Shown here in pieces: positions 42,884-62,200 of a DNA stretch of 64,000 bases. Origin of the DNA: Xiphias gladius (lineage: Eukaryota > Chordata > Actinopteri > Istiophoriformes > Xiphiidae). Position 1 is the first letter of the stretch. Each line of letters begins with the position of its first letter. The stretch is taken from NCBI RefSeq assembly GCF_016859285.1, contig NC_053409.1, positions 25,470,476 to 25,534,475 on the forward strand, in the 5' to 3' direction. The notes under the pieces are model-generated. The model was not told the DNA's origin, did not search any database, and saw only the letters and a list, made by a program, of their open reading frames with translations. The translations under genes were made by a program, and so were the position numbers.

Positions 42884-43589
42884 ATGGCGGAGCCGCCGCA
42901 GCTTCCACCTGAGGTCTGGGTGTACGTGTTCAGCTACCTGAGCACGGAGGAGAAACACACGCTCCGCACCTGCTGCAGGTACCTCAAGAAGCTCATCGAC
43001 CACCCGTCCCTGTGGAGGGACTACACGGTGGTGCTGTCCGACCTCCGCCGGTACACCTACGGCTTCTGGGACACGCTGCGGCACCGCAAGCTCACCCGGG
43101 TGGCGGTGCGACACCTGCGGCGCAAGGAGTGGCGGCGGCTCGTCAAGTTCCTCCCGTCGCTCACGGCCATCGGATTCGTGGACGGGGGGCGGCTGTACAA
43201 GGAGAAATACCTGGATAACCTATCGCGGTTCCCCGACCTGAGGGACCTCGGGGTGCGGAACGCCACCTGGGACGAGGCGATGCTGGGCCGGACCTTGAGC
43301 GAGCAGCTGCGGGAGCGGCTGACTCGCCTGAGCGTCTGCAACGTCCGGCTGCCCTGCACCGTGGAGTTCATAGACACCGTGTCGCACCTGGTCAACCTGC
43401 GGTACCTGCTCTTCCACCAGCAGGGGGAGGGCTACGGGCTGGACACGGTGAGGCCGGTGCCCGGAGGGGTCTTCCACAACCTGCTGCTGAACCTGAGGAG
43501 GCTGAAGCACCTGTCCTGGGGGATGAGGGGGGAACCGCCGGAGCCGCTGCCCGACGACTACCTGAGCCCCGCGGACCCGCAGCAGCCAG
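42884..43589 (+). CDS. F-box protein exon 1
   Basis: 706 nt with the F-box and the first Leu-rich segments. The donor is GTCAGC after CAGCCAG, phase 1. The start codon follows a CpG-rich leader. Confidence 0.9.
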
Positions 43590-43755
43590 GTCAGCCGGTA
43601 ACCTCCACCTGACCACCTGTCTGCGTGTCCTCCTCACTGCGGACAGACAGACAGGGGGAGGTGAGGGACCCTGCGGTGATAGATAGACAGATATATAGAT
43701 AGGCAGGCAGACAGGCAGGCAGGAAGGCAGGTAGACAAATATATAGACAGACAGG

Positions 43756-43787
<32 letters not shown>

Positions 43788-46357
43788 TATATAGACAGGC
43801 AGACAGACAGGCAGGCAGGCAGACAGACAGGTAGACAAATATATAGACAGACAGGCAGGCAGATGATAGATAGACAGGTAGATAGACAGGTAGATGATAG
43901 ATAGACAGGTAGATAGACAGGTAGATAGACAGGTAGATAGATAGACAGATATATAGATAGGCAGACAGGTAGACAAATATATAGACAGACAGGTAGATAG
44001 ACAGGTAGATGATAGATAGATAGATAGATAGATAGATAGACAGGTAGATAGACAGGTAGACAGATATATAGACAGACAGACAGGTAGATAGACAGATAGA
44101 CAGGTAGATGATAGATAGATAGATAGATAGACAGATAGAGAGATTGATAGACAGACAGATGATAGAGAGATAGAGAGACAGGTAGAGAGACAGGTAGATA
44201 GCAGTATTACAGTCTAAAAAATGCTAAAGTCTTAATAAAAAAGAAGTTTTACTGAAAACTGAACGAAACAAAAACTAGGACCATACCCTCTGGATATTAC
44301 TGGCTGGCAATATGTTGTACATTTGTAGTGGAAGTCTCATAATATACTGTTTAGTTATGTCTTGTAGAGCTAAAAAAAAACAAAACAAAAAAAAAACTTT
44401 TGTTGTACCAACAGTCCAAAACCCCAAAGTATTCAAATTACAAGGATATAACACAGAGGAACCAGTAAATGTTTGAATTGTTTCTTTGAAAAAAATGACC
44501 TAAGCGATTATTTGATTTTGCAAATAGCTGCTGATTCATTCTTCTGTCAATCATTCAACCGACTAATTGTTGCAGTAATGTAATGTCTTGTCTTTTCATG
44601 GCCAGAGGCATTTTTCAATAACTAAAAACCAAACAATGAGGGCTGGAACTAAGTATTGTTTCCCATTTCCTGAAGCCCCAGTTGCTCCAATGGCTTATTC
44701 CGTCCAACCGACACTCCAAAACCAAAAGATGTTTAGTTTTATTATCACGAGACAAAGAAAAGCCACAAACCGTCACATTTGAGCAGCTGGAATCAGGCAA
44801 CATTTGTCCTTTTAGCTTGAAAAATGACTTAAATGGTTAATTACTTGTGACAATAGTAGCCAGTTAATTTTCTCTACGCTGGTATTTACATTAAAATGAA
44901 ATATTTGAACCAGTTTTCCTCCAAAATAAATTTATGTCGAGCCTTGACGGGGCACCCCTGTAGCTGAGAGGTTGAGACCCCGACCCTGACCTGCAACGTC
45001 CACAGTTCAAGTGTAGTCAGGGACCATAGTTGCGTCTCTCTACTGTCTGTATTAAAGCAATTCAAATTTCCAAAAAATCCCCCTCCCCAGACAGGCTTTA
45101 ACAAACCTCTGCCTCCTCCTCCTCCTCCGCTTGGCTCCCTCAGGATCGGGCCGATATGGTGGCCCGGCGCTGACTAGCCTGGAGCTGGTGGATTACCCGG
45201 AAACCATCCTGCCGGAGAACGCCCTGAGGAGCCTGACCTCGCTCAGGTCGCTGACTATCCGCTACAGGTACATCAGAGAGGGCATCGGGTGTCGCCTCAC
45301 CTCCTGGCTCAGTCCTCTACAACAGCTGGAAACACTCACCATTATCGGTCAGCCAGCTGTTAATCACTTTTGCTTTTTTTTTTTTTTAAATTTCTTTCTT
45401 TCTGTATTTTCTAAATAGTTATTTTATTATCCGAATGACAGCTCTTCATCAGATGCCTTTGATTTATTTTTCTAAATTTATACTGTTTTTTGTTACTGTA
45501 TAGATTTTATTTTGTCATGTATTTAGCCTGTAGCTGGGTATTAATAGTGGGAATGAAATTGTGATGATTATTCCTCTGAGCCTTGTATTTTTCAAACTTT
45601 GTATAATAAATACCTAAATAATCATTTTTTTTCTCTGTAATTGTGCCAGTACTGAGTTTTGGGAACAAAGGCAGGTTTTAGATACGTGGTTGAGCAGAGG
45701 TAGTTGTTTTTTGACAGTTTCTGCTGCTCTCCGTCCTCTCAGGTGGCAATTCTCTCGCTACCTACACCACCACCATCCCGTCCAGCGTGACCAGACTGAC
45801 GCTGCGTGTGGCCATCACTCTGAAAGACATGGACTCCATCGCTCCTAAGGTCCCGGCACTCGAGCACCTGGACATTGAGCAGAACCGCTCCAGCGGCAGC
45901 CTCTGCAGACGAATCCCCATGCTGTTTCCTCAGCTCAGGACGCTCAGGATACGGTGAGCCTAAGAGGAAACCGGTTTTTTTAAATGTCACAGAGACTGGA
46001 ATCACACCAGCCAGGGAGGTCTGCTGACCTGATTACTGAACAGGCCCGAGGGCCGAGGGGACAGATGAGTTCATTTCATGCTGTGTCCTCTCTCTGTGTC
46101 TCAGGTTTTTCCGTAGAGAACCAGAGAAGGACCTGCTGAGCCTCCACCGGCTACGACACCTGGTGCAGCTGGAGCTGCTGGTGGAGCGCTCCTTCATCCT
46201 CAGAGATTACCTCAACGGCCACCCCTGGCCCAGCCCCTGCGTGCAGGAGCTAATCAACCAGCTCCGAGAGCTGTCGGAGAACAGGATCACCGTCATCACC
46301 ACGATGCGCCAGAGAAACCCTCTACGAGAATGTGACTGTGTTTGGGAGGGGGACTGA
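42884..46357 (+). CDS. F-box / leucine-rich-repeat-like protein (complete, ortholog not identified)
   Basis: Four exons (42884-43589, 45144-45347, 45743-45953, 46105-46357) join in frame to give 457 residues. Residues 3-50 look like an F-box: [20 protein letters not shown], then [20 protein letters not shown]. The rest has irregular Leu-rich repeats, for example [40 protein letters not shown] and [17 protein letters not shown]-box proteins are usually substrate receptors of SCF (SKP1-CUL1) ubiquitin ligases, with repeats binding the substrate; that role is inferred from the domain only. I compared it mentally with FBXL12 and FBXO33 and neither fits. Exon 1 is unusually large and very GC-rich, and intron 1 begins with a long GATA/GACA array. 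Confidence 0.85.
43655..44205. repeat. Compound GATA/GACA/GGCA tetranucleotide array
   Basis: About 550 bp of interleaved gaca, gata, ggta, ggca and tatata units. It has the Bkm-like GATA/GACA composition known from vertebrates. It creates spurious Leu/Ser/Tyr ORFs on the minus strand. Confidence 0.95.
44398..44580 (+). repeat. AGGGCTGCAAC-family repeat, 3' part
   Basis: It contains accaacagtccaaaacccca, ttgaaaaaaatgacctaagc and ttcaaccgactaattgttgc. Confidence 0.65.
44637..44880 (+). repeat. AGGGCTGCAAC-family repeat
   Basis: It starts gagggctggaactaagtatt and continues with ctccaaaaccaaaagatgtt, acaaagaaaagccacaaacc and agcttgaaaaatgacttaaa. Confidence 0.7.
44944..45065 (+). repeat. tRNA-derived SINE
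   Basis: The head gcacccctgtagctgagagg has an A-box-like tagctgagagg, and cagttcaagt resembles a diverged B box about 45 bp later, followed by an unrelated tail. The tRNA fold is degenerate, so this is a retroposon and not a functional tRNA gene. Confidence 0.65.
45144..45347 (+). CDS. F-box protein exon 2
   Basis: 204 nt after GGCTCCCTCAG. It encodes [20 protein letters not shown] and continues to LETLTII, phase 1 at both ends. Confidence 0.9.
45743..45953 (+). CDS. F-box protein exon 3
   Basis: 211 nt after GTCCTCTCAG. It encodes [20 protein letters not shown] through FPQLRTLRI, with donor GTGAGC. Confidence 0.9.
46105..46357 (+). CDS. F-box protein exon 4
   Basis: 253 nt after GTGTCTCAG. 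It encodes [20 protein letters not shown] through [13 protein letters not shown] and TGA. Confidence 0.9.
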
Positions 46358-49981: not shown

Positions 49982-50205
49982 AACTGAAATGTAGATCTAT
50001 CTGCAGAAGATCTTTATATAAGCAATTAGCACGAGAACCTTCACACAGAAAACAGCTTGATAAGGAGTTGTAGAGGTTGTAGTGCAAACACATAAGGGAC
50101 CTAAATGGATGCTAAACACGTGTTCTCAAGGTAAGAATGGACTCAAGTTCAGCAGATTCAGATTCAATGGACGTCCCACATCCCGCCCTGATGTTCGGGT
50201 GTACC

Positions 50206-50498
50206 TCAGAACTCCAGCAGGAGTGTCGGCGGCTCCACGGAGGTCAGGACCATCTCTTTTTTCTGTCCGCGGACTCCCTGCTCCGCCTTCACGCCCGCCT
50301 TCGTGCACCTCACGGAGCCCAGCGTGAGCTCTCTGCAGGCGAACACCAGGTTTGAGAGGAGCTGAGCGCCCCACCACGGCTCGCACCCGCCTTTATACTC
50401 CATCCTTCTCTTGTGCACCGGCTCCCCGAGCAGAGAGTCCCGGGCGATAAATAAAACGCTCCCAGGAAGGTCGAGAACTGACACTGAGTGCCCGGTGT
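50206..50498 (-). CDS. DTD2-like exon D (start uncertain)
   Basis: It encodes SVSVLDLPGSVLFIARDSLL and continues in one open frame to LLLEF and TGA. At the position equivalent to DTD2 exon 3 (50528) the frame reads V-stop-stop-P-L-N-F. Acceptors AAAAAG before 50498 and CACTCAG before 50483 both restore phase 1 and avoid the stops, at the cost of about 10-15 residues. Confidence 0.55.
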
Positions 50499-52164
50499 CT
50501 TTTTGGAAAAAGTTTAGTGGTCATCAGACTGTTGGCTGTTGGGAGGATCACGGAAAAAGACAAACTCACTGCATTAACACTGATTTTTAATTCAATAACT
50601 CACCTGCTTAGACAGCAAAGAAATTCAGACTGCCATTAACAATAAACTAACCTATAGAGAATGAAATGAGGAAATGTATTCACCAAGCACAACTCATTCT
50701 AAATAATGTGATGAGGTAGCAGTGTGCAGAAAACCGGCAATCAGACCTGCGTACACTCATAACGGCTTAGAAAATGAAATTAGGTAAATAAATCGCTCAC
50801 CTGCCTCATAGTCCTCACCCGAAACTCGAAACATTTTGCTGATAGTGAAAGCAAATCTCTTGTCTACTCAGAGGAAACGTGCTGCTGACTCTTAAAGGAT
50901 CAGTCAACTTTTCTAAAGGTCTTGTTTGATTAAAATGTGTAATGTGTTTACTTGACAGTTTCACGAGTCCATAAAAATCATCAGCCCGTCACTTGCATCC
51001 ATGCAAGGACTCTCAAATTTTCCTTCACTAAGTTGCGTCTAACTATCAGTTTGCATGTATCTGGCGACTAGATCGTTTCCTGCGATGACAGGAGATCCTG
51101 ACATTTTGCCACACTGAGGCCTGCAGAGCAGCAGGACATCTCACCCATTTCGTACGTGACGTCTGCGGCGGCTCCATGGCAAAAGCAGACATTCACAACC
51201 ATTCCCGCCCGGATCTGAGGACAGGGAGGCAGGATGAAGATGTGCGTCCGGAGCAGCATTCAGCACGGCGTACCTATTGATGCCAAGGGGCATCACACAA
51301 GTCAGAAATTTCCAAATTCAAACACATCAGGGCTTGCAATTCTTTTGTTTTTGTTTTAACCCTGGAAACTGCCTCAATGTATGAATTGTACTGTACAGTA
51401 TAAATACAGTTGCCTCACCTCACCAGTGACATGTCCACAATTACTGTCCACGGTTTAACAGCAGGTACAGAGCTGGGGCCAGAAGGCAATTAGTTTAGCT
51501 TAGCAAAAAGCCTGTCTGGCCAAAGTTAAAAAATACACTTACCAAGATCTCTAAAGCTAAAGCTCACTAATTCAAAAATTATATAAATCATATCTTTTTT
51601 ACCGGTACTCGGACAGAAACAATTTGTAGTTTTGGGACGATTTAGAAGCCTGAAACTATTTTTTGACGGTCCATCATTAGGAAAAAATATCCATCCGCCC
51701 AGTGCTCCTGTGCAGCATCTCTGGCTATAGCTCGCAATTGCATGGCAATGGTTGTCAAGATATTTCACTTCAAACCACGGTGTTGGACCGACAGAACAGC
51801 AACCATCCATAGGTCACTAAAGATGTAAGATAAATTAACAAAAAAAAAAACCAAACAAACAAACCAACACACCCACCTCGGCCCACTGTGCGTCAGCCCC
51901 GTCCAGGGCTGGTTTGAGCTTAACCTTCGCCTGACCGCACTGCTGGATGATGGTCCGGGCCTGAAGCCTCCTGGGCCTCTGAAAGACGGCTGGGCTGCTC
52001 GTACACACATACACAGTTGTCAGCACACATGTAGTATTACCACAATAACTGCTAACACTATTTAGACACATTAAATAACTAAGAAATTATTAAAGAGGCC
52101 AGTTAAAGGAAAGCAGACTCACCAAAAAGGTCATTTTTTTTGAGTCAGTAGCACTTGGTGGCAT
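50206..52164 (-). CDS. Diverged DTD2 paralog (possibly degenerate)
   Basis: Three minus-strand exons mirror canonical DTD2 located 6 kb away. Exon B (51978-51877) encodes ARTIIQQCGQAKVKLKPALD, matching [20 protein letters not shown]. Exon C (51214-51145) is 70 nt like DTD2 exon 2 and encodes IRAGMVVNVCFCHGAA, matching [16 protein letters not shown]. Exon D ends in LLLEF against DTD2 LMEF. Splice phases are conserved. Both tRNA deacylase signatures are changed: PQATL is ARDSL and TNGPYTH is SVEPPTL, so ancestral catalysis is unlikely. Using the exon at 52164-52123 as the start and the acceptor before 50498 gives about 168 residues, near the DTD2 length of 167. Two TGA codons occur where DTD2 exon 3 would begin. 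It could be a neofunctional gene or an early pseudogene with intact frames. Confidence 0.6.
51145..51214 (-). CDS. DTD2-like exon C
   Basis: 70 nt after CCTGTCCTCAG, donor GTGAGA. It has the same length and phase as DTD2 exon 2 and encodes IRAGMVVNVCFCHGAAADVT and YEM. Confidence 0.75.
51877..51978 (-). CDS. DTD2-like exon B
   Basis: 102 nt after CGTCTTTCAG, phase 0, donor GTGGGT. It corresponds to DTD2 exon 1 and ends at the same point in the protein (AQWAE against AEFVQ). An alternative acceptor 18 nt further in would remove RPRRLQ without changing the frame. Confidence 0.65.
52123..52164 (-). CDS. Possible 5' exon of the DTD2-like gene (short-start model)
   Basis: ATG at 52164 opens MPPSATDSKKMTFL and ends at a strong donor GTGAGTC in phase 0, which fits the phase 0 acceptor before 51978. 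The same frame stays open upstream to 52863, so the true start may be further right. Confidence 0.4.
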
Positions 52165-52863
52165 ACCTGTCCACCTCAGGACGGGGTTTGGTTGTGTGTC
52201 CTGGTACAGAGCTGGTGATGGTGAAGACGGGCCAGAGTTTGGTGCTCGGGGCCACCACAGGCTCCAGGCCTCAGCTGGAGCTCCTTGTAACCAAAGAGAC
52301 TGCCTCCAGGTATCTGCTCCTCCATGGTTCTTGGGTTGTGTCGATATTTGGGATTTGCACCGGGTCTTTAGTCGAGGATGAATTTGTTTCCTTGTGGCTT
52401 GTGGAAGTTGGGATTTTGCTGGGAGGTCGGCTGAAGGATGTGGCTCTCTGAGGGGCTGGTTTACACCCTGGACTTTGGCGTAGCGTTGTGTTCTGGCGCT
52501 GCCCTGAGAGTCACTTGTTTCTTTCTGGTCTTGAGGTTGTGTCTGTTCCTCTGGCTGAGGTTTTACCTGAATCTGGACGCCGCTTTGACTCTCACGCTGA
52601 CTGTCAGAGCCGTTTTTCTCCTTCTGGACTTCAGACCGCAGACAGTTCCCTCTCTGGACAGGCCAGAGGCTGGTGACAAAGGCGATGTTGGGAGACCTAG
52701 GCTGGAGGATGATGGGAGATCTGGGCTGAAAGCTGACGGGAGTTCTTAGATGAAGAAGGACGGGAATTCTGGGCTGAGGGATGATGGGAGTTGCAGGCCA
52801 GGGGGACACAGGGTTCTCGTAGGATTGAGAGTCACAACGGTTAAATAATCTGAAGAGAAGCAA
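52124..52863 (-). CDS. Uncharacterised Pro/Gln/Ser-rich open frame
   Basis: With the 34 further codons down to its stop at 52090, this minus-strand frame is 257 codons long, among the longest stretches in the window not explained by a repeat array or a gene. Near its start it carries four or five imperfect 10-11 residue units of the type SP-I-I-L-Q-P-R, encoded by roughly 30-bp tandem repeats. It continues as a Gln/Ser/Lys-rich, probably disordered stretch. It ends in phase 0 at the strong donor next to 52123, compatible with splicing into the DTD2-like exons. A pyrimidine-rich acceptor (CTTCTCTTCAG) lies near its 5' end. I recognise no domain. It may be an N-terminal extension of the DTD2-like protein or a chance frame. 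Confidence 0.3.
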
Positions 52864-53447
52864 CAGACAACGGAAGATCTGTCTCGAACGTGGGACAGGT
52901 TACCAGATTGCAGACGGTGTAAGACGTTATAGCAGGTGTGTAGTATGTTTGTGTGTTGAATATGCCGTTCTGCTGGCTGAAGCTGAGGAACCCACCACTC
53001 TGTCCTCTGAATGTGTCCCCGACACCCCGCCACCTTTGTCAACATCACCACCAGCATCGACCTCGTCATCCTTCTCGCTGCCAATAAACCGACAGAGGCA
53101 GAGAGAATAAGAAGGCACACACTTTTTCAAACCACGTGAATGGGTCACTGCTATTATAGCTACTAGTTATCCTACTATTATTACTTGTATTTCAACTACT
53201 TCGGCTTATTTCAAAACTACTGCTGCTGCTACTAAACCTAAAGAAACTATCGCTACCGTCACTACGTACTAATCGCTATGTGTTAGTGTTGCTGACACCG
53301 CTGAAGTTACCGGCATCAATACTACTCCTGCTCCAATTACTACCACACCTACTGTTACTGCTTCTACTGGTTTAGCTATAACAAGACACCTTCTCGTCTT
53401 TGCTTGACGATCAAAACACAGCGTTTCTACAGCACCGAAAGCGCTGT

Positions 53448-58069: not shown

Positions 58070-59101
58070 CGCTACCGGGGCCTTAACGCGTGTCCCCCTC
58101 GCTTGTCCTCAGGGTTTGCACCGCGGCCACTTCATAAACGGCGGGACCGGTGCCACGGACGCGATCCAAGCAGCTTAGCGCAAACCCAGAGGACCGGCTC
58201 GCTGAGTGAAAGGGAAACCGTAAGACATCTCATGCGACACACTTCCGTGATCATGTCAACCGAGATGACTTAAAAGTGCTCAAGGCTGCGCGTTGTTTTC
58301 GCATAAAGTGGTTTTTTTTCCCCCTCTTTATCTTCTTTTCTTTCTGCCTTTTCAGCTTTAATCGAGCGACACAAAACAAACCACAAAAATAATTTACAGA
58401 AAAAGACAACAACAATAAAGGTAAGAAACTAGGGCTGCAACTTACAATTGTTTTCATTATGTATTCATCTTACAATTACTTTCTCAAATAATAGATGTCT
58501 TAAGACAAAATGTCAGAAAAAACAATCCTCAGTGAAGTTTTCAAATTGTCTTGTTTTGTCAGTCCACAACTCAAGATTGTAAACTGTCTTATAATTTTGT
58601 TTAACAAGTAAACATTTTGAGTTTGTTAAAATTTTGCACAAAAGATTTTAAAAAAATGTTTTGTATCTTATAGTTTTCACCTAAAAAGTATAAATTTTGA
58701 CACTGTATCGTATAATTCCACATAGAAATAAACATTTGCATCTAATTGTTTTCACTTCGAGAGTAAGAATTTTGACTCTGTGTCTTATAATTCTGCATAG
58801 AAATAAATAAAATTTTAAAAAACGACTTTTTATAGCTTTCACTTAAAGTAATAATTTGGATCTTGATCATTTTGACTTTCAAAGTAAGAATTTTGACACT
58901 GTTTATGTGTTTATTATTTTGAATGAGAGAAAACGGCTGAAGGCTGCACTGGGCCATATTATTATATGTTATTTATTTATTTACTTACTTATTTTATTTA
59001 TAGGAGTTGTTGATTGTTCCCGCCCGCCACACTCATGCGTAATGGGCGCAAACTTGATGCGCGGCAATCTGTCGAGCTGAGGCGCATCCGATCAGCCAAA
59101 C
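58070..59101. promoter_or_regulatory. Divergent interval between DTD2 and NUBPL
   Basis: The two start codons are 1.03 kb apart and diverge. CpG-rich stretches lie next to both starts. An ETS-like cttccg lies at 58242-58247 on the DTD2 side and cggaagt motifs lie at 59328 and 59541 in NUBPL intron 1; ETS sites are common in TATA-less housekeeping promoters. The centre (58431-58980) is A/T-rich and carries an AGGGCTGCAAC-family fragment, so two separate promoters are more likely than one shared core. Confidence 0.45.
58431..58600 (+). repeat. AGGGCTGCAAC-family repeat, 5' part
   Basis: It starts agggctgcaacttacaattg and continues with aaaatgtcagaaaaaacaat and tcaaattgtcttgttttgtc. The start is the best preserved family head in the window. 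Confidence 0.75.
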
Positions 59102-59230: not shown

Positions 59231-62200
59231 GTACGATTAACGCCCGTTTCTCGCAGCACAGCACAGCTAAGCTAGCTAGGAGCTTCGCGTTCGCGTCAAG
59301 TTGGACCACGGAAAACAAGAACCAGACCGGAAGTATTATGTTGTATTCAAAATAAAAGCGATTACTGTAAAACAAAATTATATTTTTAAAACTAAAGAAA
59401 AAATTCATATCCAAAAGATAATTGAATGTCAACTTATTACATTTTATTTCTATTTAAAAGTTTAATGTAGATAATATGTTTGTGTTTTTGCTTTTAGGTA
59501 AATTCACTTGTTGCCAAGAACATTATTTTGAACCATGCAACCGGAAGTTTGTTGTACTCGTCCGGACCTGACTGGTTTTAAAAATGTCATGTTTATATTC
59601 ACTGCGGCACAAAGACTGTTACCAGTCAATAACTCGTTATGTAAATTGGTCTAATAGGGTTTAAATGAGCTGTTATTGTTAGTTTTAGTCATTTTTTTAA
59701 AATGGGAAAATGATGTAACGGCAGCAACAGTAGTACTGCTAGTCTCTCTCTGTGAATAGAAGACTCCACAGAAAATAATCAATACCACTTTCTAACGCCT
59801 TCGCCTTCATTAATGGTTCATAACTCATCTAGTAATGACTTATAGATCAGGTTTGAGACATGTTGGTAAACCATCAATACATAAAAGGCTTTCTCATTTT
59901 CCAACGAGCCGTGGAGTCTGTAGTTATGAGGACAGTGGTCCATCAAGTCTGTAGTTGAAAGTGTTAATTAAATGGTAAATGGATTTTGGTCCAGATACTC
60001 TGCTGCTGGGGGAGGAGAAGTACTGGCCAGAGAGGTTTATCGCAAGTTGTTCTCAGCGATGGTCTCTAACTGATCTGTAAAGCATTAATGATTGATGATT
60101 AATGATTTTAAAAATATTAATAAAGCCATCAGCAACTTATAAACCCTTTTTTTTTAATAAAGAGCTCCTCACTGGAACGTGGTGCCAGATCATTTAACAT
60201 CTAGTATAAATTTACACAGTGTCTGTGTTTTTATTAGTCTCCACCCATCTGTGTGTGTTAATCTCACCGTTTTGGATGTTTTTTTGATTGGCTGCTCAAG
60301 AGCCAGATCATCATATTTATTTATTTATTTTTAACCAAACTCCATTTTAAATTTTGCCAATTTAACATTGCCTTTCTCACCAGCAAAACATACGGATGTG
60401 CTACGGATGGATGTTTCCTGAAACGACTGGGACGACTCGTACGTTCAGCGTGAACGCGATCCGTCGAGCAGCTTCTGTTTTCGATCAAATTAACTAGCAA
60501 CACTCTGAGGTTTTCGTTTTGTTTATATATCATAGGGTGAATAAAGCAAAGCCTTTTCTGTTTATTTCACAGTGCCATCTGTCAATCCTTTATGGGAACA
60601 TTTTTAAAGTTGATGAGCACTTATCGCTGCCAAACCCCGTTGTATTTTTCAGCGTATTTTTCATCGTCTCTCAGTCATAAATTTGTCTTTCTTAAAACTT
60701 TCTTAGACTAATTTTGGTATTTAAAAGTATCCAGGTTTACCATCCAGTCCTGGAACGGAAACGGGCGCCCTTGCAGTCTCAGTTTTCCTAACCTCCAGGT
60801 TTGTGTATTTAATGGTCGTCGTTGTGTTGCAGAGGTCAGTGGACAGTAAGGCGTTACAGGAGAGGCAGAAGCAGCAGATGGCCAGAGGTCTTCCCAAACA
60901 GAAGCCCATCACAGGGGTCAAACAGGTCATCGTCGTGGCGTCGGGGAAAGGCGGCGTGGGAAAGTCCACCACTGCAGGTACAGCGTGAAATATGGAGAAC
61001 TCTTCCAATATCTTAATTCTTCTAGAGCAAATACGTCCGAAGCTTTAAGACCCTCTAATGGATATTTTGGACTGAATCCCTCTCAAGTTTTCCTCTTTAG
61101 TACATTTTGTTTACGTCTTTTTTTAATGGATGTCCTCTGGTAAACGGCACGTGTTTGAAGAACTGTCATAACAAACTGGATAATTTGAACTGGAACACTA
61201 TTATTGGGCTACGCTTTAACCAGCCCGGTGTCTTCAGTTTTCCACTCAGTGGTGGTTAATGTCTGTTTTTCTGTCTCTGCAGTGAATTTGGCTCTGGGAT
61301 TAATGGCCAACAATCCTGTAAGGACTCTTCTCTCTAATCTTACATTTCTTTTCTTTAGTAATTTGTTTTATTTCTGTATTATAGGCAGCAATGGCAACTC
61401 ACAACTACATAACCCTCAAAGGCATTCGATTGACATTAAAAAACACAATAAAAAGGAATATCAGTCATCGAGACAAAATTAAGTGTGATAAATAAGGTGA
61501 AATCAAATAAAAAGACACATGAAGATGAAAAATTCCAGGTTCCAATCACCGTCATTCAGACGTAGTGACACACTAAGAGGCTTGTTTTCCTAACAGGCCA
61601 AAAAAGAAATCAAAGGATTCATAAGTATCCAGGAGATACAGAAAGATCTCACCAGAGGGACTTAAGCAAAGTGGAGAGCAAACAGCAAAGCATTTACACT
61701 GTAAGGAAGCGGGATATAGAAGGGATTAGAGGACGTTTCTGTGACTGTACTATCCATATCTGTTATTTCACCCATTTCCGCTTCTTAAACTGTCAGATTG
61801 GTCAGGTCACCTCTTGTCTGTTATCGCCTGTAAGGATTGCTCCCAGTGAGAACCTTCTCTTCCTCTCTCCCTCAGTCCAAATCAGTGGGCCTGTTGGACG
61901 CTGACGTCTACGGTCCGTCGATTCCCAAACTGATGAACCTGAGGGGAAACCCGGAGCTCACTGACAGTACGACACGCGGTTTATCCTCCTCTCTCAAATT
62001 TCCAGCTTCGTGCGTTCGTCTTTTGCCGCACGCACGTCACCTGATCGTCGGTGGTTAATGTATTGATAATCCCAGAGAGGCTGTTAAGATTCTGCAGTTA
62101 GACACCTCTTTGATAAAGGTTTATAAAGGTTAGTGCAGCCGACCTGAACCGTTTTATCTTCCTTCCAGACAATCTGATGATCCCACTCACCAACTATGGG

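Follow-up and report, generated by a model that had tools for sequence, protein, structure and literature searches.

The closest described systems are ATD (Animalia-specific tRNA deacylase; DTD2) and DTD. In the passages of PMC5802732 that deal with these families, ATD is found all across chordates and ATDs are >45% identical among themselves; PQATL is given as ATD motif 1, Arg151 is described as holding the Gly-transPro motif in ATD, and the motifs of DTD read -SQFTL- and -NXGPVT-. Literature searches on DTD2 duplicates, and on dtd2 combined with teleost, found no papers. In pseudogenes derived from recently inactivated duplicate genes, an old gene that has kept its coding composition typically carries one disabling indel.

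In the window analysed here (the whole stretch of 64,000 nt of Xiphias gladius DNA, C10:25470476-25534475), the gene for the tRNA-proofreading enzyme DTD2 (ATD) is represented by three minus-strand exons, i.e. exon 1 (58069-57959), an open frame that carries the start ATG, exon 2 (56737-56668), an open frame of 70 nt that ends in phase 1, and exon 3 (56572-56250), a stop-terminated open frame of 323 nt that opens with two bases of the split codon and in which both PQATL and TNGPYTH are present. A P-loop exon at 60725-60988 (plus strand) presumably resembles NUBPL, a neighbour of DTD2 in human. The window also contains an F-box gene at 42884-46357 (plus strand), apparently with several exons, the first of which matches Pfam F-box-like with 39.5 bits and has a third-position G+C of 0.94; long tetranucleotide repeats of the CAGA/GATA type at 43680-44210 probably lie in an intron of this gene, and a long trinucleotide repeat is found at ~25.9-26.6 kb.

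A second set of three DTD2-like blocks, on the same strand and in the same order as DTD2 exons 1 to 3, begins ~4.3 kb past the DTD2 stop. Exon 1 of this paralog (51877-51978, minus strand; 102 nt, RPRRLQARTIIQQCGQAKVKLKPALDGADAQWAE) is flanked by the acceptor TTTCAG and the donor GAG/GTGGGT (slashes denote splice junctions) and ends in phase 0, while exon 2 (51145-51214, minus strand; 70 nt, IRAGMVVNVCFCHGAAADVTYEM plus G) is flanked by the acceptor CCTCAG and the donor GG/GTGAGA in phase 1. Exon 3, as delimited by homology (50206-50535, minus strand), comprises 330 nt, compared with 323 nt in DTD2, and ends in EPPTLLLEF-stop. The original prediction of three exons that align block by block with DTD2, with a 70-nt middle exon common to both genes, was borne out by the exon alignment, and the phases at both ends of the middle exon are equal. 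The associated claim that the exon frames were kept holds for the phase 0 junction of exons 1 and 2 and for the phase-1 donor after exon 2, but not for exon 3, which is out of frame: relative to this DTD2 it contains a surplus base as well as two insertions of one codon each, and of these three indels of the paralog one is frameshifting. Likewise, the final exon, predicted to be open for >90 codons, does contain 104 codons open to the stop (50520-50206), but this open frame falls short of the DTD2-equivalent acceptor (50535). Its length alone is no evidence, since 124 of 300 dinucleotide-preserving shuffles of 50150-50600 contained an ORF at least as long in one frame or another.

Judged from profile matches, the homology of the paralog to DTD2 is not due to chance, because Pfam Tyr_Deacylase (PF02580) matched the frame-matched paralog (one base omitted) with 59.9 bits and an E value of 4.6e-16 over positions 1-144 of 144, and matched the unaltered exon 3 frame with 27.2 bits (cut-off 25; E 5.6e-06). 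A sequence search of the PDB with the frame-matched paralog retrieved mouse DTD2 at E 1.8e-30 and the DTD entry 2dbo at E 0.016. In end-to-end alignments of the matched frame, 52 of 164 positions (32%) were identical to this DTD2, and identity to mouse DTD2 amounted to 64/165 (39%).

The DTD2-equivalent acceptor of the paralog reads CCCAACAG/CC, with an exon start at 50535. One surplus base before GAC ACC GGG splits the first 12 codons from the remaining exon 3; in our reading of the alignment, it is best placed in an A5 run (50500-50504, minus strand), with the upstream T5 run as an alternative. The initial 37 nt of the homology-defined exon 3 (50499-50535, minus strand), which encode ANSLMTTKLFPK in the other frame and would be skipped if the acceptor were now at 50498, match the aligned 12 residues of this DTD2 at 2/12 positions and mouse VNTLLNVKLSET at 4/12, with conservative changes (mean BLOSUM62 +0.3 at the 10 sites changed from DTD2). 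Translation from the DTD2-equivalent acceptor reaches a premature TAA (50393-50395, minus strand), and an acceptor located 7 nt past the DTD2-equivalent one runs into TGATGA at the junction (50521-50526, minus strand), which lies in frame with the long open stretch. An intact reading frame with DTD2-like splicing is absent from the paralog, owing to either the frameshift or TGATGA, and as the long open frame carries TGATGA, it can be deduced that no acceptor or splicing change further upstream can restore the frame. When six AGs from the initial 120 nt of exon 3 were tested, an open frame was obtained only from 50498, 50483 and 50477, all of which are in phase with exon 2 and remove at least 12 codons. 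If spliced like DTD2 today, the paralog would undergo a frame shift and reach a stop after 47 last-exon codons, with loss of both motif regions, so that no folded deacylase would be expected.

On the 5' side, no ATG was present at the DTD2-equivalent start position in paralog exon 1. An in-frame ATG further upstream of exon 1 (MCLNS...) is a candidate start; a possible start exon (52123-52164, minus strand), with an ATG at 52164 or 52134, ends in TTTTTG/GTGAGT in phase 0 and fits the phase 0 acceptor of exon 1, although this may be due to chance. Position 52164, the right edge originally claimed for the paralog, is an ATG of this possible extra 5' exon and not DTD2-homologous. The CpG observed/expected ratio of the paralog 5' flank (51979-52700) was 0.40, compared with 1.06 for that of DTD2 (58070-58600). 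An AATAAA poly(A)-like hexamer occurs 225 nt past the paralog stop, such hexamers being common. A 269-codon open frame at 52093-52899 (minus strand), a length reached in 0 of 300 shuffles, contains 24-nt tandem repeats (8-codon period) and a donor-like CAG/GTATGC at ~52169. As a candidate N-terminal exon, this open frame was dropped, but not disproved, on the basis of a period-3 signal of 0.58 (1.27 without the repeat part), compared with 24.2 in the first F-box exon, and of the lack of a Pfam match up to E 1.

Alignment to this DTD2 confirmed the predicted replacement of PQATL by ARDSL and of TNGPYTH by SVEPPTL, together with the loss of the Gly of the Gly-Pro motif, which is Glu in the paralog, the Pro being kept. 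Motif 1 is changed under both possible gap placings, the alternative one pairing PQ-ATL with ARDSLL. Furthermore, the Arg151 column contains Lys, and the Gln16 equivalent is kept (IIQQC). ARDSL, SVEPPTL and a Lys at Arg151 would not be expected to form the ATD pocket as it is described in the relevant passages of PMC5802732. A selective loss of both deacylase motifs is not shown, however: by visual tally, the paralog has kept 4/14 of the motif and key sites, compared with 43/96 of the other positions at which this DTD2 and that of mouse agree (Fisher p 0.39). The motif loss is thus part of a general divergence, with no demonstrated targeted change.

The duplication looks old, since no clear similarity was observed between the introns of the paralog and those of DTD2 when the two loci were compared by blastn (same strand, word size 7). 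The eight pieces returned had E values of 0.028 at best; at equivalent positions, the two genes share a piece of 21 nt at the 3' end of exon 3 (E 0.34), and the few short pieces that pair intron 1 with intron 1 do so at unlike places (E 0.34 or worse). At the 54 sites that differ between this DTD2 and mouse, the paralog agrees with mouse at 17 and with this DTD2 at 5 (binomial p 0.017), a hint that the duplication may be about as old as the fish-tetrapod split or older, or that DTD2 may have evolved rapidly in this genome. A quartet with Leishmania ATD kept all three trees under three models and did not resolve the duplication order.

Searches of the swordfish assembly itself (690.8 Mb in 1298 contigs) with PF02580 identified two loci with E values of up to 0.001, namely DTD2 and a locus on C15 that is presumably DTD1. 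A protein search with 93 exon 3 residues returned the paralog itself (100%) together with DTD2 (32%) and a single match at chance level (E 4.28), while a DNA search with 51100-52170 returned the query region and 16 short pieces, none longer than 111 query bases and all within intron 1; these pieces are taken as probable old repeat remnants. No second copy of the paralog was therefore found in its own genome by either search, and because the assembly holds a single copy, the A5 run is without a second haplotype for comparison.

The codon-position G+C content of the paralog (0.61/0.45/0.75) is of the coding type, compared with 0.63/0.41/0.79 in DTD2. Neutral evolution was simulated from the DTD2 codons (164 codons, 2000 runs per setting, G+C equilibria of 0.42 and 0.60, six branch lengths), with this DTD2 standing in for the ancestor, indels being ignored and the matched frame omitting one base, which favours an outcome without stops. 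At t 0.6, which corresponds to the observed identity, 0.15% (G+C 0.42) and 2.1% (G+C 0.60) of the runs had no stop, 0.2% and 0% showed replacements as conservative as those seen, and 0% and 2.4% reached the observed GC3. At t 0.4, where DTD2's own branch is allowed to account for some of the change, the corresponding values were 0.7% and 4.2%, 1.2% and 0.9%, and 0% and 9.4%; an earlier set of 300 runs agrees with these results. Replacements in the N-terminal part were conservative (P 0.0015 and 0.0010 at t 0.4; P ≤0.0015 at t 0.4 and 0.6), unlike those in the C-terminal part when compared with the neutral runs (P 0.55 and 0.53 at t 0.4), where the GC3 of 0.86 exceeded all 2000 runs in each of the 12 settings. 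For the part after the lesion alone, at t 0.4, 6% or 18% of the runs had no stop, P for replacements was 0.22 at both G+C settings, and P for GC3 was 0 or 0.02. Past constraint is accordingly indicated mainly by the part before column 110, as the post-lesion part alone rejects neutrality poorly.

Identity to mouse was 48/106 before column 110 and 16/59 after it (p 0.03), and identity to this DTD2 was 38/106 and 14/58, respectively (p 0.16), a weak indication that constraint may have been lost towards the C-terminus. The period-3 signal of paralog exon 3 was 3.64 (4.26 after the A5 run), compared with 5.74 for DTD2 exon 3, and is suggestive only when set against the 95% level of 4.14 (330-nt pieces across the window, coding sequence included). 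Predicted structures of exon 3 alone (mean pLDDT 37.1) and of exon 3 aligned with that of DTD2 (39.3) were too low in confidence for use. The composition, the conservative replacements and the lack of other stops point to a paralog that was, over its whole sequence, long under protein constraint, and since the coding-type composition persists after the lesion, any loss would be recent and confined to a narrow time window.

The reading that we favour, and to which we assign about an even chance, is that of an old DTD2 paralog which was long kept as a protein gene and was recently inactivated. An old tandem duplication of DTD2 (ATD) would have given rise to a copy that diverged in sequence, including the aminoacyl-tRNA pocket, but continued to encode a protein for much of the time since then, until a single base inserted early in the last exon inactivated it recently. 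Recent inactivation is favoured because of the frameshift from the DTD2-equivalent acceptor, the TGATGA encountered from the +7 position, the absence of an equivalent ATG and the low CpG ratio of the flank (0.40 versus 1.06 in DTD2), and we infer that the lesion, which stands in the single copy found in this genome, is real and recent. With respect to the original prediction of a retained protein or an early pseudogene, the long retention of the gene as a whole is supported by these data, whereas a present-day protein is not, as exon 3 carries the +1 lesion and a start codon is missing; an early pseudogene, in the sense of one recently inactivated, fits best. Several points argue against inactivation: the post-lesion part alone rejects neutrality poorly, the time window left for a loss is narrow, the AATAAA hexamer, though of a common kind, follows the stop, a single-base homopolymer lesion can be an assembly error, and the frame is intact from 50498, in phase with exon 2, as expected of a live gene with a moved acceptor. 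The last point underlies a possible, though rather unlikely, alternative in which the locus is a live non-canonical DTD2-like gene whose acceptor has moved 37 nt downstream, so that the last exon starts at 50498 and the extra A is harmless within the intron; its product would be without ~12 residues of DTD2 and without the Gly-Pro gate. In agreement with such a shift, 50498, 50483 and 50477 all leave the frame open to the stop, coding composition persists downstream of 50498, and the 37-nt piece has a G+C content resembling that of intron 2 (14/37; P 0.005 against 0.60 and P 0.70 against the intron's 0.407). A branch-like CTGAT precedes the new AG by 25 nt, with no intervening AG, whereas two AGs lie between the old acceptor and its branch-like site, and the pyrimidine content of 12/20 is below that of the old acceptor (15), comparable with the 13 of DTD2 exon 2 and the same as for paralog exon 1 (12). 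However, five A's stand directly before the new AG, unlike the CAG of a usual acceptor, and the stretch that would be lost is probably part of a core helix of the DTD fold. In addition, the composition argument was framed after the lesion had been seen, the 12 codons still match DTD2 conservatively, indicating that they were coding until lately, and a start codon would be available only via an unproven extra exon or the upstream in-frame ATG.

An assembly error or a rare allele in a live gene with DTD2-like splicing would also account for the extra base, as the lesion is a single base at a homopolymer, outside of which 166 codons run without a stop and with coding composition kept. We consider this unlikely: as a weak control, the window's DTD2 and its first F-box exon are free of such errors, the single copy in the assembly provides no second haplotype for comparison, and the start codon is missing at the equivalent position. 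A local duplicate that died long ago and has been drifting neutrally from the time of duplication would be consistent with the C-terminal part, in which differences from DTD2 are about equally frequent at codon positions 1, 2 and 3 (0.52, 0.57 and 0.50) and which contains replacements as radical as the neutral expectation, with the fit of the post-lesion part alone to neutrality on stops and replacements, and with the pairwise NG86 values of the paralog and DTD2 (dN 0.70, dS 1.11), although dS is near saturation (ML 11.9) and dN/dS is therefore unusable. The open whole length with a single frameshift at such divergence, the conservative N-terminal replacements and a C-terminal GC3 above every simulated run nevertheless make this explanation highly improbable. 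As ATD is a homodimer in which the Gly-Pro motif crosses into the partner subunit, a shortened DTD2-like protein without the Gly-Pro gate, made by a living gene with the moved acceptor, could pair with DTD2 to dampen or retune proofreading, or could bind tRNA ends without cleavage; we regard this as quite improbable, and none of the present results demonstrates a new role for such a protein.

An old second copy beside ATD would show that the gene was duplicated in the past and that the copy diverged; if dead, it would represent ordinary gene loss, and if alive, an ATD-like protein without the family-defining gate. In common with DTD2/ATD (e.g. mouse ATD, PDB 5XAQ), the paralog possesses the 70-nt middle exon (shared with the DTD2 of this window), the Gln16 equivalent, the Pro of Gly-Pro and a C-terminal LLEF that resembles MEF/IEF. 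It differs in ARDSL, SVEPPTL, the Lys for Arg151, the exon 3 frameshift and the missing equivalent start codon, and its identity to mouse (39%) and to this DTD2 (32%) is below the >45% stated for ATDs among themselves in the passages of PMC5802732 cited above. DTD/DTD1 belongs to the same Pfam family (PF02580), but the paralog is far closer to ATD (mouse DTD2 at 1.8e-30 versus DTD 2dbo at 0.016), and both DTD motifs, -SQFTL- and -NXGPVT-, are absent from it. The paralog resembles recently inactivated duplicate pseudogenes in being old, in having kept its coding composition and in carrying, in this assembly, one apparently disabling indel.
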